From Bacteroidia bacterium (lineage in GTDB: Bacteria; Bacteroidota; Bacteroidia; B-17B0; Aurantibacillaceae), in NCBI GenBank assembly GCA_022841465.1, contig JALHRL010000001.1, positions 186,001 to 250,000 on the forward strand: a stretch of DNA of 64,000 nucleotides, in the 5' to 3' direction. Shown here one piece after another: positions 6,525 through 25,321 of the stretch. Position 1 is the stretch's first letter. Each line of letters starts with the position of its first letter. The notes beneath the pieces are model-generated. The model was not told the DNA's origin. It saw only the letters and a program-made list of their open reading frames with translations, and made no database searches. The position numbers were made by a program, and so were the translations under genes.

Positions 6525-6540
6525 CTTGCTGTTAAACTAC
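6501..6540. repeat. Right copy of the direct repeat, with terminator
   Basis: Second copy of the repeat described at 4461-4500. It overlaps the stop codon of the last gene of the virus-like operon and precedes the GHKL start. No third copy was found by eye at 25.3-26.5, 27.9, 33, 46.1-46.6 or 48.5 kb. Confidence 0.7.
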
Positions 6541-8120
6541 GCTGCTTGTTTAAAACTTTCATCCTCAAATATCCTCATCTCTCCCCCTTGATTAAACCTG
6601 CCGTTTTGAACTGCCAAGCCTTTTTCGGGGACTTGGATAACTACGTCCACATCATGCTGGAACTCATTAGCACCTCTGAAATTTCCCTCTTTAGTAGTTT
6701 GAAACACATAGATAAAGGACTTGTTAGGATTAGCTTGTTTAAGCGTTTCTAAATCACTTGCCGATAAGCCTAATTTGTTTACGCTATCAAAAAAGATAAA
6801 ATCAAAGTAGGACAAATCTTCGGGAATAGTATCGGACACAAACAAATTAGGATGCTTTACATCTTTTGCGTTTAGTTTTTCTTGCAAAGTCATATCTAAG
6901 CCCTCCTCACGAGCAATGTATAACACTTTACCGTGATTACGAGCTAAATAACCAGCAAAATCAACACATAAGAAAGATTTACCCATTTTTGGTTTACCAT
7001 AAACCATTACTGTAAAACCTTTACTTGGGTCGCCAATGAGTTTACGGTACTTGCCCACAAAACCAAGAGTTTTAAATTGTACGTTGCTAAATTCCATACT
7101 GGACATTACTCCTTTTGGTAATTGTGTATTGTGAGTAGGTAAAGAAATTACAGGTGTTTCCTTTGTATCGGGTTCTAAACAAGTAATTCCGTTCAAATCT
7201 TCTTCTATTCCCGATAGTTCACAATGGCAACCTAATATCCCATTCAATCCGTTTAATTCGGGTTGAGGGATGCTCAGTATTTTTTGCGTTTTGCTCCGGG
7301 TGTAAGTTAAAAGGCTTTCACGCATTTGGTCAAGCAATTTGTTGTACTTATCATTCTTGGTTAATTTTTTTAAGGCATAAGCACGTTCCATTGCTTTTAT
7401 TAAGTTTTGTGCTTTTTCTTTTACACCAAATTTTCCATTCAACGTAATGTAACGTTTAATCAACATAACCGATGGCATTACACGTTCTTGTGAAACAAGA
7501 TTTTTAAACTCATTAAAGGTTTTTGGATTAATCTCAACTACTTCAGGTTTTTCAATTTCATTGTAGCGAAGTATTAATTTATCTTGTATGTATCGTATTT
7601 GTTTAGCATAAGGCGAAGCCTTAGTTACCTTGCGTTCTGTAATTGCTCTATGTAATGAATTAATAAAACGCAAAAAATCATCTTTCGTTTTTTTCTTTCC
7701 ATTCCAAGATAAAAATCGTTTGATAAATTTTAATTCTTCGGGAATACGCTCCACAAAAGTTAAATCAAAATCTTCTTCGTTTTTATTTTCTGCATTTACT
7801 TTTACGGTTTGTGAAGTTGTAGTTTTACTTTCTTTAATTTGTTTTGCTTTCGGCTCACTCTCAACTAAATTGGCTGTATTAGTTTTGCCTTCGTTTGTTG
7901 GTGTTACCATTTCTTTAGGATGCTTTTGTAAAAACTTATCCAAATTTTCAAAATGGTCATTCATTAATCGCTTAATAGCATCGTTGGTATTGTAGGCATT
8001 CCAGTTGGTATAATCCAGTGTGGCTTTTTTTACAAATTGAAAGGGCTTCCACATGGTTGCTGGTAGGGTTGAATAATCGAGGTTTTGTACGGTTTCTTTA
8101 TAGTTATTTACGTTTATCAT
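6537..8120 (-). CDS. RecA/RadA-fold ATPase, last gene of the virus-like operon
   Basis: 527 residues. The C-terminal third is a RecA-fold ATPase: Walker A VYGKPKMGKSFL at about 371-382, a downstream glutamate in YIAREEG, Walker B-like DFIFFDSVN, and the end ...GANEFQHDVDVVIQVPE, typical of KaiC/RadA/DnaB-like enzymes. The first ~280 residues are helical and basic with no recognised domain. A linker near 287-297 contains LNGLNGILG, similar to Gly-rich motifs in other proteins of the block. The FtsK/HerA (A32-type) packaging signature was not recognised, so a DNA replication or recombination role is more likely. The next gene upstream ends 24 bases away. Confidence 0.75.
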   Translation of the reverse strand: MINVNNYKETVQNLDYSTLPATMWKPFQFVKKATLDYTNWNAYNTNDAIKRLMNDHFENLDKFLQKHPKEMVTPTNEGKTNTANLVESEPKAKQIKESKTTTSQTVKVNAENKNEEDFDLTFVERIPEELKFIKRFLSWNGKKKTKDDFLRFINSLHRAITERKVTKASPYAKQIRYIQDKLILRYNEIEKPEVVEINPKTFNEFKNLVSQERVMPSVMLIKRYITLNGKFGVKEKAQNLIKAMERAYALKKLTKNDKYNKLLDQMRESLLTYTRSKTQKILSIPQPELNGLNGILGCHCELSGIEEDLNGITCLEPDTKETPVISLPTHNTQLPKGVMSSMEFSNVQFKTLGFVGKYRKLIGDPSKGFTVMVYGKPKMGKSFLCVDFAGYLARNHGKVLYIAREEGLDMTLQEKLNAKDVKHPNLFVSDTIPEDLSYFDFIFFDSVNKLGLSASDLETLKQANPNKSFIYVFQTTKEGNFRGANEFQHDVDVVIQVPEKGLAVQNGRFNQGGEMRIFEDESFKQAA

Positions 8121-8144
8121 TTTTCTTTCTTTAAAGGTTTAACA

Positions 8145-11100
8145 TTAAGCTGCCATTAGTTCCATTTCAATTAAGAGGGCTTCGGCTTCTAATTCTAAAA
8201 TGCGGATGCGTTCTACTTCTGCATCATCTTCGTTAGGTGGTAATAAAATTGGTTTACGGTTACTAATTTTAACGGTATCGGTTTTTATTAAACTCAACTG
8301 ATTCGGTTGTATAGAAACACTCACACCAAATTTGTTTTGTAGAATGGTTGCAAAGGCAACAACATTTTCTTTTGGTAAGTATGAAGCCATTTTATCCGAT
8401 GCTTTTTCAAATAAGCCTTTGTCCACCAATGCCATTAAATCTCTATCGGTGTAAATATCGCCGCCACGAGAACGAGCTAAAGGCACTATTACTCTGAACT
8501 TATTTCCGGCATTAAAAAAAGCAATTTCGTTAGAAGCATATAGAGCCGAACCATTAGTTAAGGATTGTAAAATTGGTAGTGCTTTAATAATAGGGACAGT
8601 AATTTTCATTTCGCCATTGGCTTTTGGTTGCCATTCTTCGGGCATCAATATTCCTTTTTTAGTTTGCCCTTCCATTGTGGTATAGCTAACTAATTTCCCG
8701 CTATCCGAACCAAATGCTTGTAACAAATTACCAGTAATCATGTAACGGAATGAACGGTCTTTGGTACGTTGCTTAATTTCTTCATTCCATTCGTTTAGTA
8801 ATTCTGATTGTTCCACTTCTTTAATATCCATACTGGCTGCAATAATTTTAGAAATGTTATCATTAAAACTCGCTGGAATATCAATGTACTTATTACTGTT
8901 TGCAATAGCTACTTTTACTTTAATGGCACTTGGGGCATACGGATTTTTCTTTCGCTTATCAATTAAAATTCCTAAGCATACTGCTAATACCGTTTCTTGT
9001 CCGTTGTCAAATGAAAATATAGGATAAGATAATTTTCTGCCGATGGTAAAGAAATTTAAAATGCGTTGTAAATATTCCTGTTTGTATTTATAGGACTTTT
9101 GAATCATTACAACATTTGCTTTGTGCGTTTCTCTTAATTCCTTTTCACGTTCACGTATAGCGTGTTGGTAAGTAGGAGAACCAGCGAGTTTCATTATTTT
9201 TTTCTCGGTAGGTATTTCTTCAATCAGTTTTTCGTATTTGGTTTCTGATTTTTTTATTTCCTCTTCCAAATTTGTTTCCATTGTATTGGTAAAATCATCC
9301 AACAACTCTTTTTTGTGTTGCTCTGCGTATTTTCCGTTTAAAGTTTCAACCAACATCTGTTCTAAGTCTGTTTTAGAATAAGGCTTTTTAAGCACGTTGG
9401 CTTTTACTTTTTCTAAAATGCTATCTTCGCCAAATGCACTCTCGCCACCTTTTCCCATTTTAATAATGCTTTGCTCTATGGTTTCCGTTTTGAGGTCAAG
9501 GGCTTCTACTTCTAAATCGTACTCGCCAATTTGCTTTAAATAACCCACATAATCATTGTAGCGTTCGGTTATCTCATTGTAAAAATCGGCTTGTTGTTGT
9601 GTGGATAATACCGCCACACGCCCCGATACTTTATGCGCTGCATCTTCTAAACCCTCATTACTTTCGCTGCCTTTCTTTTCTAAACCTAATGGGTCGTTTA
9701 GTTGTTTATTTACTTCTAAATTTTCAAGCAAATATTCTTTCACTACTTTATCGCCGTATTTATTTAAGAAGTCAGGCACATCTAAAATCTTTGTGCTTTG
9801 TTTTTGGTTAGAAGTTGTATTGGCATCTAATGATTTTAATTTCTTTTGTAACATCATCATTAATCGCTTTTCGGCTGGTATAGACGAAATCATGTAATCG
9901 TAAATCGGTTTTAAGATTTGCCCAGTACGATTAATACGCCCACGCTTTTGAACTTCTGTATTAATATCTAACTCCGCTTGTAATACAATCATTGCACGTT
10001 GTCTTACTTCTTCTTTTGGTACTTTAGGTGTAACAATGGCGTGAGCTGATGCGCCAGTACTGCCCGATTGGTTTATCATTAATACATCTACTTCGTTATT
10101 ATTAAACTGTCTAAAAGCATCGTTGGTATTTAATTTTTTGCGATTGCTTACCAAACCTTTTGAACCATCGGCATTTAATTGTACGCTGAATTTTCTACCT
10201 GTTACTTCGGCTACTTTGTAACCTGTCTTCTCTAATTTTTGAATAATCACATCAATTGGACTGATAGATAAACCTACACTTAAATTATCTATGGCTTTAG
10301 ATATACGGTTATATTCCATGCGTGCTTCTTCTTCAAAATCACTCACTTCAAAATGTTTAAACACCGATTTTCCAGTAATGTCTTTTTCGGTGTAACGCAT
10401 AATGCCCTCTAAACCTTTTCTTAAAACAGCCGAGAAGTTTGTATCAATCAAATCGCCATCACTTACCAAAAGCCCTTTGTCGGTTTCCATTTGCTCAATA
10501 AAACTGCCCATTGTAGAGGCAAATGCAATTACAGTTTTTTTGCCTTCTTTCAATCGCTGTATGGTTCTATCGGCAACCGCTTCTGCTTTTAATGAAAACA
10601 ACATTTGATTTATCACATTAAATACTTTAGAGAAGTAGGGCAAATTATCTACACCTGCTTGTGATGTTCCCTCACGTAATTCCATTTCTTTGCCCTCTTT
10701 AGAAGCTATCTCATCCAGTTCCTCTACTTTCTTATCAACGTGATTAGTTTGGAAACCGATTATATCTCGTAAAATACCGGTAACACCATCTGCTAATTGT
10801 TTATGCTTTTCGGAGTACTCATCTAATGAAATATAATTAACCTCCACACCTTCAAATGAACGCTCTCGGCGTATCATTTGCCCCTCTGCTACTAACTGAC
10901 TAGATAAAATTTCTTGTAAGGCTACACCGCCTTTATTAATCGCCTCTACCAATTCATCTTTGGTCATGTTGGCTTCGCTAATAGATGTTTTCATGGCGTA
11001 GATTGGCATATTGTCGGGACGTTTGGCAAAAGTCGCTGAAAGAAATACCACGCCTTTTGTTTGGCTTACTACTCGTTGCATAAACTCACCTGTATTGCTT

Positions 11101-12884
11101 GAACCGCTTGAGTTATGCGCTTCGTCCATAATCAACATATTGCCATTCGATATTTGCAATAAGTAGTTTGGTTTTTCGGGTTTCTTTTCGGGCGAATTAA
11201 ATTGTGAGTATGTGCCTAAAACAAAATCATAGGAAGCTGGAATTTCGCCAGTATTAAAAATAGTTTGCTGTTCGCTTGGCGCAAGTACTTGATGTACGAT
11301 GTTACCATCTTCATCTTTCACATCAGTTTTTGGTTCTCTGCCATTAATGATAAAGGGCTTTAAATCGGCTGAACCTATGGCGGATAAATCACGATAGATG
11401 TCGGAAAATAAATTAGCTTTCTCGGTTACAAAGATGGGTTTCATGCCTTGTTTTACTCCGTAGCGTATCATTGCTGCTGCTATACGCCCTTTGCCAATGC
11501 CTGTTTGGTCGCCAATTATCATGCCTTGTCCACGAGCTTCGATATTGTAGATACTCATTGCAACCGCATCAATTTGTTCGGCAGATAAGGCTTTGCATAA
11601 ATCGTTATGTGATAAATAACCTAAACGATGCCTCACAAAATTATCCATACTACCACCAACTTCATTTTTAACTCTTGTTAAAGCCGCTTGTGTTTCAAAA
11701 CCCATCGAATCGGGTACTTGTGTATCTAATACCACACAGGCTTGTGAGGCTGGTTTATATGGCATCCCTAATTCCTCGCTATTCATTTCTTTTAAAAGCT
11801 CTAAGGCTTCTTGTTCTAATTCCAATATGTTCATGTTTATTTTTTCTTTTACGGGTGCTTGTGTTTCAGTAGGTGCGTTTTCTGTTATGCCAATTACACG
11901 TTCAAATAATTCTTCAAATGATTTTATGACTTTACTGTTGTAACTATCCTTTAAAGGAGCTGCACCATTGCTTTCCCATTTTTTACCGTTAATTAAAATC
12001 AAACGTACTGGAAAGCCTGTACCTTGTCGTGTGTAGAGTTTACCTCCATCTATTTGTATAACATCTTCTACGTTGTAATGATGGTAGAGGTAATTAAAAA
12101 AGATACGGTTCTTGCCACGCTCAATTCTATTCTTATCGTCCCAGCGTGTATGACCACCAATGATAATAGCGGCTTTACCATTTGGTAGCATGGTTTCTAA
12201 AGCCTTTAAGGACATTAGATGGTCTAGGTCTGTAATGGTAAATTCGCCAAACTCGGCTGGAGTTTTTAATCTACCGAATGGAGGGTTTGTGATGACTGCT
12301 TGGAATGTCTGTTTTAAATCTACATACGAAAAGTAATTGGTAGCATCCCTGCTGAATACATTCGCAAAACCTTGTGTTCGTAAATTACGATTTCGGGTTA
12401 CATCAATTTCATTTACATATACTCTTGAGGGTTCGGCTGCAATGGTTAATAATCCATTACCTGCACTTGGTTCATAGGCATACCCACCTTGTGTATGCAA
12501 ATGAGGTAAGCCACAATACACACCCATTAAATAGGCTATGGGTGCTGGAGTAGAGTATTGTTGCAGAAGAATGGATTGAGATGTGCGGTGTGATAAAATC
12601 ATTTGATTGTTATACAACTCAACAATACGGTAATATTTTTCTTCTACTGTTCCTTTTCCTTGTGCAATTCCACGAGCTACGTTCACAATGGCTAACTCAG
12701 TTAGTTCTTTTATTTCTGTCAGGTCATCTATTTGTAATTCATTGGCAATGGCTTCTACACTTCGTTTATTGTGTTTTACTCCTTTTTGTAAATCACTTTG
12801 CATTTGATTTACAAAAGACAAAAAGTTTGGGGCAAGTGTGCTTTGCCCCAAACCTAATAGTTCATGTGTGCTGCCTTGTTCCAT
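8145..12884 (-). CDS. N6-adenine methylase fused to Strawberry-notch-type SF2 helicase
   Basis: 1,579 residues. Residues ~100-300 form an adenine methyltransferase: EPSAGNG (138-144, SAM motif I) and catalytic NPPFG (200-204). Residues ~440-1000 are a superfamily 2 helicase: Walker A QTGIGKGR near 460, DEAH near 586, SAT motif (LSATFA), and motif VI QKRGRINRTGQ near 980, as in Strawberry-notch proteins. The rest is helical with a beta-rich end. Such methylase-helicase giants occur on phages and large mobile elements. Activity is inferred: self-methylation against host restriction plus remodelling of element DNA. Its ATG overlaps the previous stop (TAATG). Confidence 0.85.
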   Translation of the reverse strand: MEQGSTHELLGLGQSTLAPNFLSFVNQMQSDLQKGVKHNKRSVEAIANELQIDDLTEIKELTELAIVNVARGIAQGKGTVEEKYYRIVELYNNQMILSHRTSQSILLQQYSTPAPIAYLMGVYCGLPHLHTQGGYAYEPSAGNGLLTIAAEPSRVYVNEIDVTRNRNLRTQGFANVFSRDATNYFSYVDLKQTFQAVITNPPFGRLKTPAEFGEFTITDLDHLMSLKALETMLPNGKAAIIIGGHTRWDDKNRIERGKNRIFFNYLYHHYNVEDVIQIDGGKLYTRQGTGFPVRLILINGKKWESNGAAPLKDSYNSKVIKSFEELFERVIGITENAPTETQAPVKEKINMNILELEQEALELLKEMNSEELGMPYKPASQACVVLDTQVPDSMGFETQAALTRVKNEVGGSMDNFVRHRLGYLSHNDLCKALSAEQIDAVAMSIYNIEARGQGMIIGDQTGIGKGRIAAAMIRYGVKQGMKPIFVTEKANLFSDIYRDLSAIGSADLKPFIINGREPKTDVKDEDGNIVHQVLAPSEQQTIFNTGEIPASYDFVLGTYSQFNSPEKKPEKPNYLLQISNGNMLIMDEAHNSSGSSNTGEFMQRVVSQTKGVVFLSATFAKRPDNMPIYAMKTSISEANMTKDELVEAINKGGVALQEILSSQLVAEGQMIRRERSFEGVEVNYISLDEYSEKHKQLADGVTGILRDIIGFQTNHVDKKVEELDEIASKEGKEMELREGTSQAGVDNLPYFSKVFNVINQMLFSLKAEAVADRTIQRLKEGKKTVIAFASTMGSFIEQMETDKGLLVSDGDLIDTNFSAVLRKGLEGIMRYTEKDITGKSVFKHFEVSDFEEEARMEYNRISKAIDNLSVGLSISPIDVIIQKLEKTGYKVAEVTGRKFSVQLNADGSKGLVSNRKKLNTNDAFRQFNNNEVDVLMINQSGSTGASAHAIVTPKVPKEEVRQRAMIVLQAELDINTEVQKRGRINRTGQILKPIYDYMISSIPAEKRLMMMLQKKLKSLDANTTSNQKQSTKILDVPDFLNKYGDKVVKEYLLENLEVNKQLNDPLGLEKKGSESNEGLEDAAHKVSGRVAVLSTQQQADFYNEITERYNDYVGYLKQIGEYDLEVEALDLKTETIEQSIIKMGKGGESAFGEDSILEKVKANVLKKPYSKTDLEQMLVETLNGKYAEQHKKELLDDFTNTMETNLEEEIKKSETKYEKLIEEIPTEKKIMKLAGSPTYQHAIREREKELRETHKANVVMIQKSYKYKQEYLQRILNFFTIGRKLSYPIFSFDNGQETVLAVCLGILIDKRKKNPYAPSAIKVKVAIANSNKYIDIPASFNDNISKIIAASMDIKEVEQSELLNEWNEEIKQRTKDRSFRYMITGNLLQAFGSDSGKLVSYTTMEGQTKKGILMPEEWQPKANGEMKITVPIIKALPILQSLTNGSALYASNEIAFFNAGNKFRVIVPLARSRGGDIYTDRDLMALVDKGLFEKASDKMASYLPKENVVAFATILQNKFGVSVSIQPNQLSLIKTDTVKISNRKPILLPPNEDDAEVERIRILELEAEALLIEMELMAA

Positions 12885-13405
12885 TATGCAGCTAATAGTT
12901 TTAACGTTATTGTTGCTCCTCGTAGGTAAACAAATTTGTTAGATGCTCCCGATTCTTTGCGAATAGCTATGGCATAACTTTTTCCAGCTTCCACATTAAA
13001 TACATTGGTACTAATGGTTGCATAAGTTGCATTTGTAAACTGCACCGTTGTATTGGGTACTATGCTGTTGTTTCCTAAATCCACCAAGCAAATTTCTCCT
13101 CTTAATCCGGTATCTGCATTTACACTTGCAAATAGTTGGGCTTGTATGGTATTGCTTCGGTTTTGGTAAAAAAATGAATTGGTTGGAATAACTATGGTTT
13201 GATTGCTTACCACAAACAATGCGCTCTTTGTACTTAATACACTTGCATAAACGATTGGTAAACCAACGTTGCAATAGCTTTGGCTTTTTGCTAATGCTAA
13301 AGGTGTAACAATTAGTTTATCAGATGTACCTGCATTAATATCAGAACCTTTTGCGTTTCTAAAATTAAATAGCCTACCTGTGAATAAATCTAAATAACGT
13401 GCCAT
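12884..13405 (-). CDS. Beta-rich candidate virion surface protein
   Basis: 173 residues from the ATG at 13405 (MARYLDLFTGRLFNFRN). A longer upstream frame exists but would overlap the next gene by 180 bases and is rejected. The sequence is Thr/Val/Asn-rich with alternating hydrophobics (TNATYATISTNVFNVEAGKS, FVYLRGATITLKL), suggesting an all-beta domain such as a spike or fibre tip. The stop of the upstream gene is one base away. No family recognised; virion function is inferred from the neighbouring lysis and structural genes. Confidence 0.55.
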   Translation of the reverse strand: MARYLDLFTGRLFNFRNAKGSDINAGTSDKLIVTPLALAKSQSYCNVGLPIVYASVLSTKSALFVVSNQTIVIPTNSFFYQNRSNTIQAQLFASVNADTGLRGEICLVDLGNNSIVPNTTVQFTNATYATISTNVFNVEAGKSYAIAIRKESGASNKFVYLRGATITLKLLAA

Positions 13406-13406
13406 A

Positions 13407-13967
13407 TTATGCGTATGATAGATTAATGCGGTTATTCCAGATGTTATCAAAATTTTTGTTTCCGTCTGCCCACTGATAAGTGCAAACATCTCCTGAATTA
13501 TTAATTCTTTGTATCGCCCAAACCGCATCTTCCACATTCGCCGACGGGCTGGCGAAACCTTTGTAAATAACATTCGGGTTGCTTTCATCTATAATTACAG
13601 GTTCAAAAAATATTTTGTTGTCTAAAGCGTTTACTGCATTTTTAATAGTGTCAGCAGTTGTATTGAGGGATGTTAGCCTTTCAATTTCAATGTTTTGTTT
13701 GGCTTCGGTGGCAGTTCCAGCAATCGCACCAGCCGCTAACATTTCATTAATCGCTTCTTTTAGGGCTTCAGCATCTGCCACAACCGGGCTTGTTACATCT
13801 GCAAAGGGTACAAACACATTATACAATGCGCCCTTGCCAATGTCTATTTTTATAATGTTTGTTTTTACAACCACAATTTCAATGATTTGATTTTTTGTTA
13901 GGTTGCGGATTTGTGTACCATTTATGATTTTGATACTCGCTCCATTATTAATTATTTGTATAGCCAT
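13407..13967 (-). CDS. Candidate virion spike or base protein
   Basis: 186 residues, start MAIQIINNGASIKIING. The N-terminal ~60 residues are short beta strands (IEIVVVKTNIIKIDIG), the middle is helical (DAEALKEAINEMLAAG, then heptad-like ERLTSLNTTADTIKNAVNAL), and the end has beta strands with NPNVIYKGFASPS. A beta-helix-beta plan suits a trimeric receptor-binding or spike protein. No database family recalled. One base separates it from the next gene. Confidence 0.55.
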   Translation of the reverse strand: MAIQIINNGASIKIINGTQIRNLTKNQIIEIVVVKTNIIKIDIGKGALYNVFVPFADVTSPVVADAEALKEAINEMLAAGAIAGTATEAKQNIEIERLTSLNTTADTIKNAVNALDNKIFFEPVIIDESNPNVIYKGFASPSANVEDAVWAIQRINNSGDVCTYQWADGNKNFDNIWNNRINLSYA

Positions 13968-13978: not shown

Positions 13979-14161
13979 TTAATTGTTTTTATCTTCGTTT
14001 TTATTCTTAATTGTGCTTGATATTATTTCTCCAATCCACGCTCCTATAAATCCGCCTATCATTACATAAGGCACTACATCTTTGTCGTGCGTTTTTCCAT
14101 AGTAGTAAGAAGCCAATGAACCAATAAGTGTGAATGTGGACACCAATGTTTTTTCCTTCAT
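13979..14161 (-). CDS. Small membrane protein, holin-like
   Basis: 60 residues with two hydrophobic segments (TLVSTFTLIGSLASYYYG and YVMIGGFIGAWIGEIISS) separated by KTHDKD, and a charged tail. Size, two-span topology and its place two bases after the spanin-like gene suggest a holin. Function is inferred from context only. Confidence 0.5.
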   Translation of the reverse strand: MKEKTLVSTFTLIGSLASYYYGKTHDKDVVPYVMIGGFIGAWIGEIISSTIKNKNEDKNN

Positions 14162-14163
14162 AC

Positions 14164-14805: not shown

Positions 14806-14844
14806 AAATACTGTTTTTTTTAAGGATTAATTTTTACTTCTTTT

Positions 14845-15063
14845 TTAGGATTTGTTTTTCTCGATGCTATATCCAAAGCATCCTGTGGCAATTAAACTGA
14901 TAATGGCATAAAACATATATTCGGGAATGTCCTTGCCAAAAAAGAGATTAGCGAACCAGCTTATGACAATCAGTAATAAACAAATGGCTATCACTAATTC
15001 ACGCATACTGTAATTATTGCTTTTGTCTTTTAAAAGTTGTTTTAGATAATTCATTAGGCTCAT
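14845..15063 (-). CDS. Small two-span membrane protein, holin-like
   Basis: 72 residues with two membrane segments (LVIAICLLLIVISWFANLFF and YMFYAIISLIATGCFGYS) and a basic N-terminus. The start overlaps the end of the glucosaminidase gene by about 50 bases, a packing common in lysis cassettes. Holin function is inferred. Confidence 0.55.
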   Translation of the reverse strand: MSLMNYLKQLLKDKSNNYSMRELVIAICLLLIVISWFANLFFGKDIPEYMFYAIISLIATGCFGYSIEKNKS

Positions 15064-17113: not shown

Positions 17114-17833
17114 TTACTTTTTTGGTTTTGATAAAATGATTTTTAAATAATCTCCAATCTCCCAGTATTCCAATTCACTTTTCAGAGTCTCCATTAAATC
17201 GGTGGCATACATCCGTTTGAATTCCATTCCTGTTTTTACAAAATCAAGTTGCGTTGGAATTTCAGCAAACACAGCTTTAATAGCAGGTTCATCTGTGCCG
17301 GGAATAAAGGAGTAAGTTTTATCAAAGGCTGCTTTTAATCGTTTTGCCCAAGCGGTGTAAAAACTCTGTGTTGGTTTTGCTCCTTTCTTTTCGGGTTTAG
17401 TAGCAATGATTTGTAATAGCTCATTGTATTGACTGGCTTGTAATTCATCGCTCATATCTAAATACATATTGCGGTGGTATTCTTTTTTATATGCCTTGAA
17501 TACTTTGTTGAGTTGTTCTTTACTTTCAATGCTAATGATTGTTGCCCTTAATTTTTCCATGTCCGTTCCCCAATAACCATCGTTTTCAAAAGCCATTTTT
17601 ATTTGCTTGGCAAGGGTTTCGGGATTTCCGTCATCAAAACTTTTGGCATGGGCTTTATCTTCCACTTTGTTTTTAATTGACGTAGTTCCCCACCAAATCA
17701 AACCTCCCAGCCCAGCGATAGAAAGCAACGTCAAACCTATTTTTTCTTTTAGGCTCAAACCTTCGCTTTTGTTCGCTTGTTCGTGTTTATATGGAACAAT
17801 GGCTGGTTTACGATTATGGTTGTTGTTATTCAT
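17114..17833 (-). CDS. Single-span membrane protein, function unknown
   Basis: 239 residues: basic cytoplasmic N-terminus, one membrane segment (IGLTLLSIAGLGGLIWWG, ~32-49) and a soluble helical domain rich in Lys, Glu and aromatic residues (ESKEQLNKVFKAYKKEYH). It shares the basic-TM-helical plan of the downstream peptidoglycan-binding protein, suggesting related virion-membrane proteins. No family recognised. Confidence 0.6.
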   Translation of the reverse strand: MNNNNHNRKPAIVPYKHEQANKSEGLSLKEKIGLTLLSIAGLGGLIWWGTTSIKNKVEDKAHAKSFDDGNPETLAKQIKMAFENDGYWGTDMEKLRATIISIESKEQLNKVFKAYKKEYHRNMYLDMSDELQASQYNELLQIIATKPEKKGAKPTQSFYTAWAKRLKAAFDKTYSFIPGTDEPAIKAVFAEIPTQLDFVKTGMEFKRMYATDLMETLKSELEYWEIGDYLKIILSKPKK

Positions 17834-17840: not shown

Positions 17841-18023
17841 CTACACGCCTAATGCGGTTTTTGCCATTGCGGTTTTGATTGGGTCGTTTTGAATGATGTA
17901 GGCTAACTTCTCCAGTTCTTTATCTTTTAGTTTACTGGCTAATACGGTTAAGGCTTTCATTTTTGTAATCGCTTCTTTTTCTGAAGCTGCGCTGATGTCT
18001 ATTTTATAACTGAATTTTTGCAT
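17841..18023 (-). CDS. Small helical protein
   Basis: 60 residues from the ATG at 18023 (MQKFSYKIDISAASEKEA). A longer reading starts at 18071 inside a hairpin and is rejected. The protein is Lys/Ala-rich and helical (ITKMKALTVLASKLKDKEL). No family recognised. Confidence 0.5.
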   Translation of the reverse strand: MQKFSYKIDISAASEKEAITKMKALTVLASKLKDKELEKLAYIIQNDPIKTAMAKTALGV

Positions 18024-18036
18024 ACGTTTTTGTTTT

Positions 18037-18081
18037 AAAAGGCAAGGCTTCGCCACGCTAAGTGTTTCCACCTTTGCCTTT
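18037..18081 (-). terminator. Stem-loop between operon genes
   Basis: On the minus strand AAAGGCAaAGG pairs with CCTTGCCTTT (one bulged A) and is followed by TTTTAAAAC. It could partly terminate after the coiled-coil gene and tune expression of downstream genes. Confidence 0.5.
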
Positions 18082-18107
18082 GTTTGTTTTAAATTGATTT
18101 TAATGAA

Positions 18108-18965
18108 CTACTCTTTACCTGCTTCGAGGGCTTTTGCAATGAGTGTTTTATCATTGGCAAATAAATCCAACACATCTAAAATTTGATTAAACTCTTCTTC
18201 ATTAAAATGTGCTTGTATTTTTTTAATGATTTCTAACATCGCTTGGTCTTGTTCGCTAAGTGTTGCAGAGTTCTCCGTATTTTCTTTTACACTTGCAAAA
18301 CTTACTTCGGCATTTTCGTTTGTGTTGTTTACTGTTCCTAAAGCTGGATTAGTAGTGTCTCGCTTTAATCCCATTAAACCATCAAGTAATGGAAACTTAC
18401 CATCCATAGCACTTTTTACAAGTCCTTCTACTGCAACAGTTGCAATATCTCCTAAATGATAACCTGCTATTTTATTTCCATTACGTTTGGCTTGTTCAAT
18501 GATTTGATTTTGCTGATGAATAACATTATCCTTTTCATTAATGGTTTCTTCCAGCTCACGTATTTCCGATTTAAGGCTACGGATTTCAATTTCTTGTTCG
18601 CTACGCTCGTGGTTTGTTTTTCTCCAATCACTAATGCTACGTTTTGAAAATTTTGCAAACGGTAATCCACTTAAACCAAAGGTTTGTGCATCTTCTCTTG
18701 TTTTGGCTTTTAGGATAAACACGTATTGGTCATTGCGTGGCGATAGCGTAGAGTTGTAAATAACGATTTTGATTTGTTCGGTATCTACTGTCATATAATC
18801 TTCATAAGCATCAAAGTCGCTGATTTCATCAGTCTTTGGAACCGCTTTTAAATTATCTACAAAGATTTCGTAAAACTTGGCTTTTTGTTTTTCAGCCATG
18901 TTGTTTAAATGTGTTTTTAAGCGGTCAATTTTATTTTGGTCGAAGTTGTCGAATTGAATGGGCAT
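18108..18965 (-). CDS. Coiled-coil protein of the virus-like block
   Basis: 285 residues. Residues ~1-120 are mixed alpha/beta (EQIKIVIYNSTLSPRNDQYV), ~120-165 a strong coiled coil (EIEIRSLKSEIRELEETINE), then a hydrophobic stretch and an acidic helical end. It contains DGKFPLLDGLMGLK, similar in style to Gly/Leu motifs elsewhere in the block. A scaffold or internal virion role is possible but not shown. Confidence 0.55.
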   Translation of the reverse strand: MPIQFDNFDQNKIDRLKTHLNNMAEKQKAKFYEIFVDNLKAVPKTDEISDFDAYEDYMTVDTEQIKIVIYNSTLSPRNDQYVFILKAKTREDAQTFGLSGLPFAKFSKRSISDWRKTNHERSEQEIEIRSLKSEIRELEETINEKDNVIHQQNQIIEQAKRNGNKIAGYHLGDIATVAVEGLVKSAMDGKFPLLDGLMGLKRDTTNPALGTVNNTNENAEVSFASVKENTENSATLSEQDQAMLEIIKKIQAHFNEEEFNQILDVLDLFANDKTLIAKALEAGKE

Positions 18966-18978
18966 AAATTTTCTTTTT

Positions 18979-19314
18979 TTATTTGTTAGTTTTTAATGAT
19001 TGATGTTTTGGAATAACTTGTATAAACCGAACATGGTTAATACTGTTACGATTATTACTGATAAGTATATCCCCTTGATGTTCGTAGCTTTGTTCGTTTA
19101 TTTTATCTTCTGCTATATCATACACGCCAAACTCAGATTGTATGCTGACATCACACTTTTCCTCTACTAAAATGAAAAACTGATTAAAAGCGTTTATCTC
19201 TAATTGTTCGTTTGCTTGTAACACAAAGTGTCTGAAACGGATATAATAATCGCTGTTAAAACCCAATTCTTTCATTCGGCGTGGGATATATTCTAAAGCA
19301 AGGACTACGTTCAT
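18979..19314 (-). CDS. Hypothetical protein, virus-like block
   Basis: 111 residues, start MNVVLALEYIPRRMKELGF. A helical first half and beta-rich second half (ISNNRNSINHVRFIQVIPK). No recognised motif. Its place next to the candidate capsid genes suggests a minor structural role. Confidence 0.5.
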   Translation of the reverse strand: MNVVLALEYIPRRMKELGFNSDYYIRFRHFVLQANEQLEINAFNQFFILVEEKCDVSIQSEFGVYDIAEDKINEQSYEHQGDILISNNRNSINHVRFIQVIPKHQSLKTNK

Positions 19315-19365: not shown

Positions 19366-19827
19366 TTATTTTGAATACCACAGATAAACATTCAATAGAT
19401 AACTTACACTTTGTTGGTTTTGCAATCCGATGTTGTCTTTATACATTCCATTGATGACCGTGCTATCTGCATTAGTTATGACTACGTCTTCAAACGTTTG
19501 CATTTGATGTGTAAATACTTCGGGTATCCATTGCGTATTTTTAGTATAATCGCCATACGCCATATTACTGTCCAATCGAAGTTCGCCAGCAAAAAACACA
19601 TTCGCTTCTTCGCAACTTTGTAGTTTTAATTCGCCTACTAATTGATTGCGCTTAAATAGAGCATCTGAATTTATGTTTGGCACAAGTTTACTTCCATTCA
19701 AAAACCGCCCACCAATTTCAACACCAATTACTTTCTTTGCTGTTTTTGGTAATCTGATTTGAAAGTGTTTTACTTGACCGGCTTTATTGATGGCTAACGG
19801 TGTTATACAAACTTGTTCCTGCATCAT
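19366..19827 (-). CDS. Candidate beta-sandwich structural protein A
   Basis: 153 residues. Opens with strands around KHFQIRLPKTAKKVIGVEI and continues with FLNGSKLVPNIN and VFFAGELRL, a pattern of alternating strands and loops resembling a single jelly roll. It appears related in layout to the next upstream gene (LPKTAKKVIGVEI versus LDKTVKRIKGVLV). The two genes overlap by 4 bases (ATGA), so they are probably made in fixed ratio, as expected for capsid or vertex partners. Capsid identity is inference. Confidence 0.5.
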   Translation of the reverse strand: MMQEQVCITPLAINKAGQVKHFQIRLPKTAKKVIGVEIGGRFLNGSKLVPNINSDALFKRNQLVGELKLQSCEEANVFFAGELRLDSNMAYGDYTKNTQWIPEVFTHQMQTFEDVVITNADSTVINGMYKDNIGLQNQQSVSYLLNVYLWYSK

Positions 19828-20207
19828 AACTCGTCCTCCGTTTCACAATCTACATACAAGGACACTCGGTAAGCTGCAAAGGTTGTTCTACCATCATCGG
19901 CATCGGTATAACTTAATTTAATAATACCATTACCTATGTTAGTTGTATCAATTTTATAATAGCGTTCGTTTGGTGATACATTAATACCCGACATCAACAA
20001 TTTACTTTCATAATTTTCGGGGAAGTATTCTTGATTATTTATTTCAATTTTTTGTGAACCCCTGTAATACAACAAGTCGTCTTTATCCGAAGTAACTAAT
20101 ACGCCTTTGATACGCTTGACGGTTTTATCCAACTCAAATGTTTTGCTTACACTTTTGTTTGCTTCTGCAATTTGTATGTCGTATCTTTTTTTTACTATCT
20201 TTAGCAT
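19824..20207 (-). CDS. Candidate beta-sandwich structural protein B
   Basis: 127 residues, nearly all beta: KTFELDKTVKRIKGVLVTSD, IEINNQEYFPENYESKLL, then GIIKLSYTDAD and AYRVSLYVDCE. The strand-FP-loop-strand pattern is seen in small jelly-roll capsid proteins of non-tailed viruses, but I have no alignment. Paired with protein A by ATGA overlap. A terminator-like hairpin separates it from the gene upstream. Confidence 0.5.
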   Translation of the reverse strand: MLKIVKKRYDIQIAEANKSVSKTFELDKTVKRIKGVLVTSDKDDLLYYRGSQKIEINNQEYFPENYESKLLMSGINVSPNERYYKIDTTNIGNGIIKLSYTDADDGRTTFAAYRVSLYVDCETEDEL

Positions 20208-20237: not shown

Positions 20238-20271
20238 AAAAGTCCGCTGCCACTTACAGCGGACTTTTTTG
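20238..20271 (-). terminator. Strong stem-loop downstream of the candidate capsid gene
   Basis: AAAGTCCGCTG and CAGCGGACTTT form a perfect eleven-base stem with a seven-base loop. T-runs lie on both sides (longer on the plus strand). Read on the minus strand it would partly end transcripts after the 20285-21007 gene, a usual way to raise capsid mRNA over downstream genes. Confidence 0.7.
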
Positions 20272-20284
20272 ATTTCAGAATTAA

Positions 20285-21007
20285 CTATGGAGTTGTTATA
20301 GTTCCATGTAAGCCCACAAACAAATGGGTCTTTTGGTCTAAACCATCCATTGTTCCTAATTCAATAGTCATCTCCATTAAGATGTCATCGTGAATTAAAC
20401 GTGGATTTGCTAACTTGTAATAGCCTAATGGTACGTTGTGCATATTACTTGTTTTAAACACGTTGTTGCTGGTTTCGGGAACGATTTGTTTTTTGTTGCT
20501 CTTTAGAGAGAATTCCCCATTTACGATTGGTGCAAAATTTTCTAATGCGCCAAATTGTGTAGCCATTACTTTATCCTTTGTCATATCAGCAGCTACACCA
20601 GCTAATAAAACAATACCACTCACTAAAAACGCTTGGTTCTTTGGTAACTTAGCATTTGATACATTACGCAATCCGATTTCTTTGTCGTCTTGTGTTTCAA
20701 ACATCTTGATTGTTTTTGAGCTTACAGGTTTGATACTGTAAATCACGTTATCCGCTAGACGTAAATCACCTTTTGATAATCCTTCTTTGATGTGTACCGG
20801 TAATTCGCCAAAGTGTTTTTCCATTTCGGCACGAGAGCCTTTGCTCGATGCGCCAGTACTTGCCATTTTGTTTATGGCTCGTAATCGGCTAATCGGATTC
20901 ATACGGCGCAAAGCACCTAACAACTCATCGCTGCCCTCTAAACCTTCTAAACCCAACAAAGCTCCTACGTTGTTGTATTCTTCTACTCCTTCTAATAATT
21001 CTAACAT
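20285..21007 (-). CDS. Candidate major structural (capsid) protein
   Basis: 240 residues. The N-terminal ~60 are low in charge and Leu/Gly-rich (NNVGALLGLEGLEGSDELLG), followed by a basic helix (RRMNPISRLRAINKMAS). Residues ~75-240 are a beta-rich domain (QAFLVSGIVLLAGVAAD, FVGLHGTITTP). A small soluble body after an arm-like N-terminus, high predicted expression (own terminator) and a central position suggest the major coat protein. No family recognised; this is inference from context and composition. Confidence 0.5.
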   Translation of the reverse strand: MLELLEGVEEYNNVGALLGLEGLEGSDELLGALRRMNPISRLRAINKMASTGASSKGSRAEMEKHFGELPVHIKEGLSKGDLRLADNVIYSIKPVSSKTIKMFETQDDKEIGLRNVSNAKLPKNQAFLVSGIVLLAGVAADMTKDKVMATQFGALENFAPIVNGEFSLKSNKKQIVPETSNNVFKTSNMHNVPLGYYKLANPRLIHDDILMEMTIELGTMDGLDQKTHLFVGLHGTITTP

Positions 21008-21173
21008 AATTTTTTGTTTTTAATTTTTTTTATATTTCGTTTATTGGTTGTATTATTTTGCTTCACTAAAGACAAGGCGTTGCCATTACACTAATTTTTT
21101 ATCATTAGGGTTTGCGTTTACTGCAATGCGTTTTTAGGAACGGAAAGGCTCTATGCCTTTTGTGAAGCGAGGA

Positions 21174-21764
21174 CTAATACAATTTATCCTCTATGCCATT
21201 CATGTCATCATTCATGCCTGTCATTTGTTTACGTTCGTATTGTTCTCCTAACCGAGCTATTTCACGCTCGATGTTATCCAGCGAACCCATATCGAGTTCT
21301 TTGTTTTCGGTGTTGGGATATTTAAAGTATTGAACGCTTCCCATACCGTTTGCCCCTTCGTCTTCTTTCTTTTTAGGCTTGATGATTTTGTCTAAATACA
21401 ATCGCTGTTTTAAGCTTTCCTTAAACAGTTGTACTCTTTCTTTTACGCCTTCAAGACCACTTACACCATTTACTGAACCCGTAGCCATTTGATATGTGCC
21501 TGATGCCATCATACCAAACCCGAAACTGGTCATTAGCGGAACACCGACATAATGCCCGATGAGTGATGTTCCGATACCTGTTAGCAAGGAAGGTTTACCA
21601 ATGGCTGCTCCCGCCAAGCCTCCACCAATAACACCAACTGCTATGTCTTTTAAAGTTTCAATAGCCGTGTTTTTGCCATTGCCTTTGGTTTCTAATGGTT
21701 GTGTAAGTGTCATCACTTTGGACTGATTTTTCTTACTGGATTTTTTGTTTTTCTTTTTACTCAT
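21174..21764 (-). CDS. Gly-rich membrane protein with basic N-terminus
   Basis: 196 residues. The first ~17 residues are almost all Lys/Ser/Asn, then a long Gly/Ala-rich hydrophobic region (IAVGVIGGGLAGAAIG through FGFGMMASGTYQMATG) that could cross a membrane twice, and a charged helical tail. It contains VNGVSGLEG and MNGIEDKLY. A membrane-vesicle or virion-membrane protein is likely. A 166-base gap without a gene lies downstream (21008-21173). Confidence 0.55.
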   Translation of the reverse strand: MSKKKNKKSSKKNQSKVMTLTQPLETKGNGKNTAIETLKDIAVGVIGGGLAGAAIGKPSLLTGIGTSLIGHYVGVPLMTSFGFGMMASGTYQMATGSVNGVSGLEGVKERVQLFKESLKQRLYLDKIIKPKKKEDEGANGMGSVQYFKYPNTENKELDMGSLDNIEREIARLGEQYERKQMTGMNDDMNGIEDKLY

Positions 21765-21792
21765 TGTTTTGTTTTTTTAAAGGGTTTATTAT

Positions 21793-23625
21793 TTACAACT
21801 CTATTTTGTGTATGGGTTTGTGTTGTTGTTTTTTGCGCCCTTTTCGCTTTCCTTTTTTATTTTTAGGTACACCATTTAATCCACCACTCGATTTTTTTGC
21901 ACTTCCCTTTGAATCATCTTTTTTTAAGGCTTTGTAACCTGCAAACAAAATCCCTGCAACACCTAAACCAATACCCACAGGTTTCATCCACTTTTTATTA
22001 TTTTCCCAAAACTCTTTAAAGCCACCTTTTTTAGTGTCATCTGTTTTAGTGTCCATATTTGTGTTTGCTGTTCTCGCATTTGCGCCATTATTTTGGTTGT
22101 CTTCGTTTGTGCCTGCTTCGCTATGAGTGTTTTGATTAGCTGGTACATTTTCGCTATTACTGTTACCTTCGTTACTGCTACTGCTTTTGTTTCCTTCAGG
22201 GCTGCTTGTTGAACTGTTACTTGCGTTTGAATTGCTTGAAGAGTTGTTACTATTTTCGCTATTCGCATTCTCCGATGTAGGATTATCTCTATTTGCATTG
22301 CCACTTTCTGCATCACTTGCAGCCCCTTTGTTTTCTTCGGGTACATTAAAATCTTGGCTTTGTTTTTTATTCGGAAAAACATTACCGATTGATTTTAATA
22401 AGGCTGCAATAGATGCCATAACTGTCGTTGCCGCTGTAATGGCTGCACTTGTGGTTACGGCTGCACCTAATCCTTCTGTACCTTCTAAACCATTTACAAA
22501 TTCATCTTGATAAATGTTTGTACCTAGTAGTGTAGAAACATTGGTGTATTCACTCATGCCTGATACGTTTCCATCCATACTTTCAGCATAACCAAATCCA
22601 TTTACTTCTTTGTTGCGATTTCCTCTACCTTCTAAGATTGCCTTTTTAAGATTTTCGGGCTTACCTCCAGCGGTGTAAAATATTTGTTCTATTCGGTATA
22701 GCACATTTTTTAGCTTTCCGAATTTCGCCATGTCAGCACCCTTTTGTTGTGCTTCACTTTCTGTTAAGTAAGCCCATTTTAATCGTTGTGGTACTTTCAT
22801 TACATTAAGTTTCATCGAAGCTAATATACCTGCTCGTAATAACGCAGTAGCCGGATTCGCTTTGTTAGCAATGTTTAAGCCTTTTTTGGCAATCGTTTTA
22901 AATTTTTGAAAGCCTTTGTTTTTAATTAATGTTTTTTTGTTGCCCTGATTTTGCAAGGGCATGGCGGATGTGCTTTGGTTCTTACGAAATATCTTGGCTT
23001 TCCCTAATTCGCCCATTTCGCCGTCCCATCCAAACAGGTCTTGTACATCTACACCTCCGTTTAGTTTCTCATCATCTATGCCATCTAAAAATTGTAAATC
23101 CATTTTGTAATCTTTTTTTTCGCTGTAAGGTTCTTCATAATTAAATCTGTCCACTACACAATCCATCACGATATACTGTCCATTGCTCATGGGTACTATG
23201 GGGTAAATGTGTTGAAAGTGGTTTTCCTTGTACTTTGTTATTCTGTTAATGGTTGGAATATTTAGCTCTGCTAAACACGTATCTATGAATGTTGTAAAAC
23301 AATCGCAATCGCCTTTTGCGTCATGAATTAATCGGCGTGGGCTGCGTACCTGTTCCAAGCCTCTTTCGTCTTTTTCATATTCGACGTGTTGTTTTACAAA
23401 GTGCCATAATTTTTCGCAAGCCTCATATATTCCTAATCCTCTTAATTCGGCATCCACATAATTTTTCACTTGCCATCTGCATTTTGCAACTACCTTTGGT
23501 ATAAACGCTACCGTATCACTTACACCTGCACCCTTTTTTATAGTTTTATCTATTACCAATGCTGCTGGAAATAAATGCCTGTATGGGTCGAGGCTTTTAA
23601 GTTTTATTTTTGTAGTTGCTTCCAT
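21793..23625 (-). CDS. Transglutaminase-like (papain-fold) protein with C-terminal membrane anchor
   Basis: 610 residues from the ATG at 23625, which overlaps the upstream stop (TAATG); a longer reading to 23682 is rejected. Residues ~60-190 form a transglutaminase-like core: Cys in GDCDCFTTF, His in HFQHIYP, Asp in MDCVVDRF. A Gly/Asn motif region follows (NGFGYAESMDGNVSG, FVNGLEGTEGLG), then a hydrophobic Ala/Thr segment, ~100 residues of Ser/Asn/Glu low complexity, a membrane segment (VGIGLGVAGILFAGYKAL) and a Lys/Arg-rich tail. It may be a virion maturation protease or a cross-linking or host-wall enzyme. Confidence 0.65.
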   Translation of the reverse strand: MEATTKIKLKSLDPYRHLFPAALVIDKTIKKGAGVSDTVAFIPKVVAKCRWQVKNYVDAELRGLGIYEACEKLWHFVKQHVEYEKDERGLEQVRSPRRLIHDAKGDCDCFTTFIDTCLAELNIPTINRITKYKENHFQHIYPIVPMSNGQYIVMDCVVDRFNYEEPYSEKKDYKMDLQFLDGIDDEKLNGGVDVQDLFGWDGEMGELGKAKIFRKNQSTSAMPLQNQGNKKTLIKNKGFQKFKTIAKKGLNIANKANPATALLRAGILASMKLNVMKVPQRLKWAYLTESEAQQKGADMAKFGKLKNVLYRIEQIFYTAGGKPENLKKAILEGRGNRNKEVNGFGYAESMDGNVSGMSEYTNVSTLLGTNIYQDEFVNGLEGTEGLGAAVTTSAAITAATTVMASIAALLKSIGNVFPNKKQSQDFNVPEENKGAASDAESGNANRDNPTSENANSENSNNSSSNSNASNSSTSSPEGNKSSSSNEGNSNSENVPANQNTHSEAGTNEDNQNNGANARTANTNMDTKTDDTKKGGFKEFWENNKKWMKPVGIGLGVAGILFAGYKALKKDDSKGSAKKSSGGLNGVPKNKKGKRKGRKKQQHKPIHKIEL

Positions 23626-24113
23626 TAGGCTTTGTTTCTTAATGTGATGTCGTTTGTTTTTTCGTAGGGTAATTTTCTCCAACCTAAGTCCACTTGACTA
23701 ATGGTTTTAACTGTAATGATTGCGGCTTCATTCATGGTTAAGGCTTTCATTAGTCCAGCACCTACTGAAAATAATCCTGTGTAGGGTACAAGTATCATAA
23801 TGCCCTCTATGTTTACTTCTCCGTTCTTTGGTATCTCTATGTTTTTGTCAATTACTTGAGATGTGCCAATCACGCTATCCTTATATTGGGCTTTAACAAA
23901 GGGGTATTTAATTTTGAATTTTACATTGCTTGGGTTTTTTAATTTTACATCTATCCGAATGGTTATCCCTTCTAATTTTATGGAGTGAATGTTTGCTTTA
24001 ATATTCGTTTCTATTCTACTACTGGCTTTGGATAATCTACTAGCATAGCTATACACGCCTACCAAACCTGCACCTATGCCTGATATAATTCCTATTTTTT
24101 TCCAGTTAGCCAT
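23625..24113 (-). CDS. LEA2-like membrane-anchored protein
   Basis: 162 residues with an N-terminal membrane segment (IGIISGIGAGLVGVYSYASR) and a beta-sandwich resembling LEA type 2 domains (IRIDVKLKNPSNVKFKIKYP, then IEIPKNGEVNIEGIMILVPY). Such domains bind membranes or serve as structural modules. Coupled to the transglutaminase-like gene, so the two probably act together in one membrane structure. Confidence 0.55.
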   Translation of the reverse strand: MANWKKIGIISGIGAGLVGVYSYASRLSKASSRIETNIKANIHSIKLEGITIRIDVKLKNPSNVKFKIKYPFVKAQYKDSVIGTSQVIDKNIEIPKNGEVNIEGIMILVPYTGLFSVGAGLMKALTMNEAAIITVKTISQVDLGWRKLPYEKTNDITLRNKA

Positions 24114-24154
24114 TTTGCTTTTTCTCCTTTCTATATTTTATTTTTTTATTGTTC

Positions 24155-24358
24155 TTAATTCTCTTTTGTGTTTTTCTTTCGTAGTCTAATGGATAAATAA
24201 TCGCCTGCCAGTTTAAAACTCATCCATATTGCTCCGCCTATAACCGCCTTTACTGCATAATCCAACAAGCCCGAATAATCTAAGTTGGCAAACAGTATTG
24301 CTCCAGTTAAAAAGGTATGCGAAGCGGTGCTGTCGTTTGTGATTTCATTTGTTTTCAT
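24155..24358 (-). CDS. Small membrane protein
   Basis: 67 residues with two hydrophobic stretches (HTFLTGAILFANLDYSGLL and AVKAVIGGAIWMSFKLAG) and a basic tail. No family recognised. The 116 bases upstream contain a weak TAATCTTTG promoter-like element. Confidence 0.5.
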   Translation of the reverse strand: MKTNEITNDSTASHTFLTGAILFANLDYSGLLDYAVKAVIGGAIWMSFKLAGDYLSIRLRKKNTKEN

Positions 24359-24474
24359 TTTCTGCTTTTTTAATTGTTGATGTTGTTTGCGAGTACAAAG
24401 ATTAGCAAGGGTTTTGGCTCACTAAGCGGATTTTGGTTCTTACTGGTTTTTCGTTTACCTCCGTTTACTTTGCT

Positions 24475-24708
24475 TTACGCTGCTTCATTTACAATCTGAC
24501 AAGGTGTGCCGTATGTTTCGATGATAAACAATACTTGTTTTACACTATACAAACCACCAATGGGTTTTCCGAGTTGTGGCTCTATGGCTTTTATCCAACG
24601 GTTGAAAATGTGTTTACTCACTTTGAAATGATTATACAATTCTTTTTTGTTGCAGGGTCTTACTTTAAATGGTTGTTCCATTACTACTACTTTTGCTGTG
24701 TTACTCAT
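24475..24708 (-). CDS. Small HTH DNA-binding protein (paralogue of 26524-26757)
   Basis: 77 residues with a predicted helix-turn-helix (NKKELYNHFKVSKHIFNRWI) and a conserved end (YSVKQVLFIIETYGTP). It aligns along its length with the gene at 26524-26757 (NKDLARLFGKSESTWRREV ... WSIKQVEQIMSLLGRP). It is probably a regulator or small DNA-binding protein of the element, and the decamer array at 25390-25469 is a plausible target. Confidence 0.65.
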   Translation of the reverse strand: MSNTAKVVVMEQPFKVRPCNKKELYNHFKVSKHIFNRWIKAIEPQLGKPIGGLYSVKQVLFIIETYGTPCQIVNEAA

Positions 24709-24754
24709 GTTTTTATTTTTTTTGATTGTTTTTAATTGATTTGATTTTTTGTTT

Positions 24755-25321
24755 TTAGAAATTGAGGTACTGAATGTGCATGATACTGTTCATGTAGAGT
24801 TGCACTAAATCATGTTGTTTTAATTCTATCAACTCTCTGCGGTAGTTTAAGAGGTCAATAATGTTGCGGCTGTCGGCGTACTTTAAAAGTGCTTTTGCAA
24901 ATAATGCAATACCCTCGTTGTAATGTGGTACGGTTGCTCTTTGGTTTTCTACATCTTTGTACCATTTGGCTGTTCCTGATAAACCGTTTTTGTAATTTAC
25001 ATTTAACCAATCTATCGGTTTTGAAATGTAACGTCCTTTCCTGCGTGTTAAATATCGCTTAACAAGGCACACACGCTCTACTAATTGTTTAAAGGTTACA
25101 TCTAAGTTTCTGCTTCCCTTAAAGTGTTCTGCAATTAATAGTTTAAAATTTGCCTCTTCTTCGTGTGTAAATAGTTGTGTGTTCCAAAATGCAGCTTTAC
25201 AGATTAACCACAAATTTTCGCTGGCAGTTTCTTTTTTTGTGCGTGGGTACAAACCGCCTTTTAGTAATTGTAATTTTAATTGTGTACTTGCTTTTTGATT
25301 AGTTTTTTTTGCTGTTTCCAT
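24755..25321 (-). CDS. First gene of the virus-like operon, basic protein of unknown function
   Basis: 188 residues, Lys/Arg-rich (RRKGRYISKPIDWLNV, VKRYLTRRKGR), mostly helical. No recognised domain; replication-initiation or early DNA-binding roles are possible. It lies directly downstream of the decamer array and a TACTTTG promoter-like element. Confidence 0.55.
   Translation of the reverse strand: METAKKTNQKASTQLKLQLLKGGLYPRTKKETASENLWLICKAAFWNTQLFTHEEEANFKLLIAEHFKGSRNLDVTFKQLVERVCLVKRYLTRRKGRYISKPIDWLNVNYKNGLSGTAKWYKDVENQRATVPHYNEGIALFAKALLKYADSRNIIDLLNYRRELIELKQHDLVQLYMNSIMHIQYLNF

Follow-up and report, generated by a model that had tools for sequence, protein, structure and literature searches.

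A probable temperate, tailless provirus of Bacteroidota with predicted jelly-roll coat proteins and two homologues of structural proteins of phage SSIP-1

The window analysed here, a stretch of 64,000 nucleotides from the genome of a Bacteroidia bacterium (contig JALHRL010000001.1, positions 186,001 to 250,000), contains at 6537–25321 a block of 23 closely spaced minus-strand ORFs, several of which overlap (Table 1; genes are named by their first coordinate). A first-pass annotation had counted about 24 tightly packed genes on this strand, which agrees well with our count. Apart from an amidase, a glucosaminidase, annexin repeats, a RecA-like ATPase and a fusion of methylase and helicase, the block contains little that Pfam or PHROGs recognise. 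Neither library finds a terminase, portal or tail gene in the block or among its core genes; the hallmarks of Caudoviricetes (terminase large subunit, portal, tail) are absent from the core by these searches. Relaxase and type IV secretion genes, the marks of conjugative elements, were likewise not found in the block, nor were a coupling protein or other secretion genes (the whole block by Pfam and PHROGs, part of it also by NCBIfam), so that the earlier statement that tail, portal, terminase and conjugation genes are missing holds for the block. No polymerase was recognised, and no Rep by Pfam or PHROGs. In composition, the block (GC 0.34–0.38) is close to its surroundings (0.30–0.36).

Table 1. 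Features of the element and their supporting evidence (positions in the window).
Feature	Position	Strand	Basis
Left end of element	3682..3685		core GTGA, element continues ACCTAGCTGAGC; G061 comparison
Cargo: methyltransferase (3835-4443) and GHKL-ATPase protein (4506-6500)	3835..6500	-	Pfam; weak PADLOC matches
RecA/RadA-type ATPase, SSIP-1 gp40 homologue	6537..8120	-	hmmsearch E 8.9e-18 over ATPase domain
1579-aa N6-methylase-like and Strawberry-notch SNF2-type helicase	8145..12884	-	Pfam
Likely head fibre/receptor-binding proteins (13407-13967; variable 12884-13588)	12884..13967	-	inferred from position, variability, fibre-like sequence
Small membrane proteins 13979, 14164, 14845 (holin-like)	13979..15063	-	hydropathy, conserved order
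Glucosaminidase, C-terminal membrane span and basic tail	15014..15655	-	Pfam E 2.7e-20; PHROG endolysin
N-acetylmuramoyl-L-alanine amidase	15680..16114	-	Pfam Amidase_2 E 4.5e-19; PHROG 822 E 8e-48
Membrane-anchored protein, endolysin-type cell-wall-binding similarity	16138..17112	-	PHROG endolysin E 4e-6
Membrane-anchored annexin-repeat protein	17114..17833	-	Pfam Annexin E 8e-8, above cut-off; PDB annexin VI E 9.5e-12
Three conserved proteins 17841, 18108 (coiled coil), 18979	17841..19314	-	core synteny
Third beta-rich structural candidate	19366..19827	-	alignment; overlapping stop/start couples to 19824
Second single jelly-roll protein (minor coat, second MCP or vertex)	19824..20207	-	AF2 pLDDT 83.7, 8 strands
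Stem-loop (terminator or 3' processing signal) after coat gene	20238..20268	-	12-bp perfect stem
Major capsid protein candidate, single jelly roll, helical N-terminal arm	20285..21007	-	conservation; AF2 and Foldseek/VIA
Glycine-rich hydrophobic (membrane) protein, conserved	21174..21764	-	core synteny
Transglutaminase-like cysteine protein, C-terminal span, SSIP-1 gp34 homologue	21793..23682	-	hmmsearch E 1.2e-12
LEA2-like 23625 and small span protein 24155	23625..24358	-	weak Pfam LEA_2 E 0.004; core synteny
Small DNA-binding regulator 24475 (resembles 26524) and conserved 188-aa protein 24755	24475..25321	-	
Regulator 26524 and XRE-ImmA repressor/peptidase 26792 (26792-27826)	26524..27826	-	Pfam HTH_3 and Peptidase_M78
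Cargo: copper/oxidative resistance island, ~18 kb	27975..46089		two multicopper oxidases, HMA, MauE, MauG peroxidases, secreted proteins
Large serine recombinase (integrase)	46931..48532	+	Pfam Resolvase E 2.7e-28, Recombinase, Zn ribbon
Right end of element	48446..48449		core GTGA after CCCATCGG; G061 comparison

The lysis functions proposed at first reading are supported by the Pfam matches of the amidase and the glucosaminidase, to which a holin-like protein of 72 residues at 14845, assigned by eye, can be added. Small membrane proteins with basic tails are present as described, some flagged by a strict hydropathy scan and others read by eye. The annexin repeats occur in a membrane-anchored, virus-type protein that is conserved in the core of the relatives. 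Outside the block, the two regulators at 26524–27826 are conserved together with the core and are likely a lysogeny switch, and the methyltransferase and GHKL-ATPase genes at 3835–6500, possibly a restriction or defence pair, are not conserved in relatives.

Comparison with G061, the genome of another species of the same genus (PorZ 51% identical), shows that the block is part of a larger unit. The two genomes share one unbroken alignment of 44.8 kb at 96.3% identity, from 3682 to 48449 of the window; no similarity between them was found in the flanks on either side, and the insertion sites differ. Because the unit could be compared at two insertion sites, its ends are defined, and the integrated element spans 3682–48449 (44,764 bp). 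The 19-kb extent given initially was hence too narrow and covers only the core of an element of about 45 kb. Similarly, the first-pass annotation was right that there is no integrase within 6537–25321, but a large serine recombinase at the element's right end had been missed because it lies outside that block. Its final codons run into the flank, and at least six other elements have related recombinases close to the core. The element thereby shows both an integrase and defined ends, the marks of a temperate integrating element. Direct repeats longer than about 13 bp were not found flanking the elements, as expected with a serine recombinase. In G061 the right end adjoins the 3' end of an apparent tRNA gene; the window itself holds no tRNA or Rfam gene. 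A second, diverged copy, whose coat protein is 72% identical, lies 60 kb away in the window genome, terminates at tRNA-Arg, measures about 25 kb from ATPase to integrase and carries different cargo. In one IMG/VR relative (G424, 36441–37721, locus L168), a recombinase judged by eye to be of the tyrosine type stands beside an otherwise common core; the integrase type has therefore been swapped between elements. That the window copy is a dead remnant of a provirus appears very unlikely: its recombinase C-terminus does differ at the junction, which is what integration is expected to produce, yet all core ORFs are open and G061 holds the unit at 96% identity with defined ends.

The resistance island at 27975–46089 is common to G061 at about 96–98% identity, inside the unit. 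The sizes of the elements (about 25–45 kb) speak for a capsid with room to spare or of variable size, or else for copies that their cargo makes too large for it. Adjoining the right end, outside the element, lies a type II CBASS with CapP/CapH-like regulators at 48614–55423 (CapP-like 48614, HTH 49501, cyclase 50432, E1-E2 51463, JAB 53169 and SAVED-type effector 53645).

The coat candidates lie in the middle of the block. 20285 is its most conserved gene (56–93% identity, 77% mean column identity). The coat gene has no match in Pfam, PHROGs (queried with 20 coat homologues) or NCBIfam, and sequence-profile searches of the coat alignments against the PDB also gave none. The AlphaFold model of 20285, built from 20 sequences, has a mean pLDDT of 71, the remaining four models reaching 48–60, and shows a helical arm followed by eight strands at residues 83–239, that is, a single barrel in a protein of 240 residues. 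Its best Foldseek matches (E 6.7e-7, probability 1.00) are viral: capsid proteins of an algal virus, SPV1 and an iridovirus, and the FLiP penton. With VIA, it aligns to the SPV1 coat at Z 8.8 over 150 residues (3.8 Å) and, with lower scores, to PBCV-1 (8.3), an iridovirus, PRD1 P3 (7.1), HHIV-2 (6.6), P23-77 VP17 (6.5) and SH1 (6.2). The cellular copper monooxygenase PHM scores similarly to the viral proteins (Z 7.2), and the fold is therefore by itself no proof of function. 19824, too, is modelled as a compact jelly roll with eight strands (Z 9.3 to PHM, 8.9 to SPV1, 7.6 to PRD1 P3). Of the three genes picked out for a fold check, these two were modelled, and both yield predicted jelly rolls with viral capsid matches; no pilus or conjugation protein is prominent among the matches, just as terminase and portal stay absent from the profile searches. 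Altogether, we regard 20285 as a candidate major capsid protein with a predicted upright single jelly roll.

The strong terminator noted earlier behind the likely coat gene is a stem-loop with a perfect 12-bp stem that recurs at this place in 18 of 20 elements (dG <= -15), compared with 0–4 at most other junctions, 13 of 19 after 13407 and 6 of 16 after 6537. Its position is kept while its sequence changes completely from element to element, which suits a highly expressed gene.

Related blocks, which the first-pass annotation had recommended searching for, are widespread. In about 20 elements whose wide flanks were read, the genes from 24155 to 13407 follow in the same order and define a core of about 18 genes that is kept in dozens of genomes; core genes occur together in most of 80 named genome loci taken from 149 loci found. 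Sampling 395 genomes of the class turned up the coat gene in 32, spread over 19 of 196 genera; in a phylum-wide sample, three of 395 genomes have it. Carriers include Puia dinghuensis, Sediminibacterium magnilacihabitans, Chitinophaga eiseniae, Niastella sp. OAS944 and Flavisolibacter nicotianae, and the named strains are mostly cultured, which makes the prediction testable by induction. Coat ORFs are open in nearly all relatives, and several genomes hold two copies at different sites. Most divergent loci retain 21793, 20285, 19824, 17841 and 17114; in the stretches read of the divergent relatives L172 and L174–L179, the 6537 ATPase is undetectable and the coat and transglutaminase-like genes are kept. 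A reduced module with the same gene order lies on the 53-kb plasmid pPP10 of Persicobacter psychrovividus (L164, 34052–49998), and some members may thus live as plasmids. Viral collections hold few relatives: phage records searched with the coat protein gave no match, and IMG/VR has only two contigs with the coat gene, neither with terminal repeats or circularity; the attP pattern was not found in IMG/VR viral contigs.

Among viruses whose particle is known, SSIP-1 is the sole relative detected; it is an isolated, unclassified phage with a circular dsDNA genome of 43,788 bp (NC_017983) that infects a member of Rhodothermota (Bacteroidota/Chlorobiota group). When core profiles were compared with the SSIP-1 proteins, only 21793 and 6537 matched clearly, to gp34 and gp40, both annotated as structural. 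21793, which probably starts at an ATG further downstream than the listed TTG, has the W, DCD and H of gp34 conserved, and a search from gp34 also finds homologues in divergent relatives. gp40 is a predicted packaging ATPase (PMC4124505). The SSIP-1 virion is reported to be tailless, with T=49, an internal membrane and two types of major capsid protein, possibly single jelly rolls (PMC6356626, PMC6260650). By hhalign, the coat proteins show no sequence link to SSIP-1 gp44–48, gp55 or gp1. The model of 20285 is matched by BFVD entry I1ZBH9 (E 1.7e-5), a possible gp46 by its length (211 residues). The element resembles SSIP-1 in host group, genome size and the homologues of gp34 and gp40, but differs in that the SSIP-1 integrase gp13 has no match to its recombinase, the 2319-residue methyltransferase gp43 has no detectable match to 8145, SSIP-1 has no annexin match, and the coats are not alignable by sequence. 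Furthermore, SSIP-1 is a free phage, whereas the element is integrated and carries cargo.

Taken together, the predicted capsid-like jelly rolls and the two homologues of SSIP-1 structural proteins favour the non-tailed virus of Bacteroidota that had been suggested from the block, and two readings with other particles or machines have to be weighed against it. A domesticated or satellite particle, which packages host DNA as a gene-transfer agent or needs a helper, would be in keeping with the 18 kb of resistance cargo in the window copy, the sizes of about 25–45 kb, the lack of a recognised polymerase, Rep or FtsK-HerA motor and the rarity in viral collections. We nevertheless consider it improbable, given that integrase, repressor and lysis genes are kept, that a 96% identical unit has moved between species, that the coat ORFs are open in nearly all relatives, with two copies at different sites in several genomes, and that an isolated phage of similar size has two virion proteins in common. 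Least probable of the readings is an element of the integrative or conjugative-like kind that builds no capsid but a new type of transfer machine across the envelope. The many proteins anchored in the membrane, the peptidoglycan hydrolases, the ATPase, the cargo and the integrase would fit such a machine as well, yet relaxase, coupling protein and type IV secretion genes are lacking by Pfam, PHROGs and, for part of the block, NCBIfam, two proteins are predicted jelly rolls, and there is the homology to SSIP-1 structural proteins. With high confidence, we therefore read the block as the core region of a temperate Bacteroidota provirus, tailless and with a jelly-roll shell, that encodes structure, entry and lysis. 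Weighing against this reading are the moderate quality of the 20285 model, the occurrence of jelly rolls in cellular proteins such as PHM, the missing sequence link between the coat and SSIP-1 coat candidates, an ATPase outside the FtsK-HerA type that is undetectable in the stretches read of divergent relatives, and the scarcity of relatives in viral collections.

Known groups of tailless viruses provide partial likenesses. Halopanivirales/Sphaerolipoviridae-type viruses (P23-77, SH1, HHIV-2, SNJ1) are tailless and some are temperate, and their upright single jelly roll is matched by 20285 (Z 6.2–6.6) and by 19824 at the fold level of predicted models. In these viruses, the ATPase is of the FtsK-HerA type (PMC8812541). 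Just one ATPase was recognised among the core genes, and it belongs to the RecA/RadA/AAA_25 type (PDB RadA E 2e-10; Pfam AAA_25/AAA_24), not FtsK-HerA, which sets the group apart from Halopanivirales as described in PMC8812541. Sulfolobus polyhedral virus 1 (SPV1, Portogloboviridae), one of the closest structural matches of 20285 (Z 8.8) and of 19824 (Z 8.9), is likewise without a genome packaging ATPase (PMC8812541) but has an archaeal host. FLiP and phiCjT23 (Finnlakeviridae), membrane phages of Flavobacterium, share the lack of a tail and a Bacteroidota host, and the FLiP penton is among the Foldseek matches; Finnlakeviridae, however, have a double jelly-roll major capsid protein and a circular ssDNA genome (PMC5894146), in contrast to the single jelly roll of 240 residues found here and the absence of a Rep recognised by Pfam or PHROGs. 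Double jelly-roll groups in general (PMC5894146) were rejected, the coat being too short, as were Charybdis elements (PMC12324425), which are small circular elements of marine archaea. By its predicted workings, the element is like a tailless single jelly-roll membrane virus; coat sequences and annexin repeats set it apart from SSIP-1, and its motor is distinct.

The motif LxG(L/V/I/F/M) occurs 35 times in the core proteins except the helicase, against 13.7 expected (about 2.5-fold; maximum 26 in 300 shuffles), and is not enriched outside the core (38 against 34 expected). The motifs sit in linkers of many core proteins, among them the N-terminus of 20285, 21174, 21793 and 6537, and are possible protease sites. 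Together with the transglutaminase-like 21793, this enrichment suggests, at the level of sequence, maturation cleavage at LxG sites by that protein.

We thus propose the following mechanism. XRE-ImmA 26792 and the small regulators would hold lysogeny. Upon induction, the minus-strand operon would produce a shell in which the single jelly-roll 20285 predominates and 19824, perhaps also 19366, serves as partner or vertex protein. By analogy with its relatives, and given the many small membrane proteins, the particle may contain a membrane, in which case the shell would enclose it together with the span proteins 24155, 23625, 21174, 16138, 15014, 14845, 14164 and 13979. At entry, membrane-anchored hydrolases would breach the peptidoglycan, and annexin-repeat 17114 could remodel the membrane. 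The gp40-type, RecA-like 6537, with 8145, would package or process DNA; the gp34-type 21793 would be a virion protein and possibly the maturation protease; amidase, glucosaminidase and holin would release the particles.

A broader reading, to which we assign an even chance, joins these points into a large lineage, at the rank of family or order and so far undescribed, of temperate membrane viruses without tails in Bacteroidota. It would give SSIP-1 a clade, use a RecA-type rather than an FtsK-HerA motor and employ an annexin-repeat membrane protein for entry or membrane shaping; its transglutaminase-like virion protein could cleave proteins of capsid and membrane at repeated LxG(L/V/I) sites, and the viruses would move resistance islands between species. 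The open PMC literature that we searched describes no such proviruses, a provisional novelty given that subscription papers and bioRxiv lay mostly outside the search.

Counts of tailless jelly-roll viruses in bacteria may be far too low, since profile libraries miss them; for the coat gene here, Pfam, PHROGs and NCBIfam all gave no match. The element ties the orphan phage SSIP-1 to proviruses across the class, and opens a test of whether DNA packaging into a jelly-roll capsid can be driven by a RecA-type ATPase. It also raises the questions why annexin repeats occur in a virus and whether metal resistance travels between species in such viruses. Finally, the methylase-helicase 8145–12884 shares 35% identity with a portion of a very large BS-TP4 protein; this Bacteroides phage carries a portal gene, and the likeness points to gene sharing between tailed and tailless viruses.
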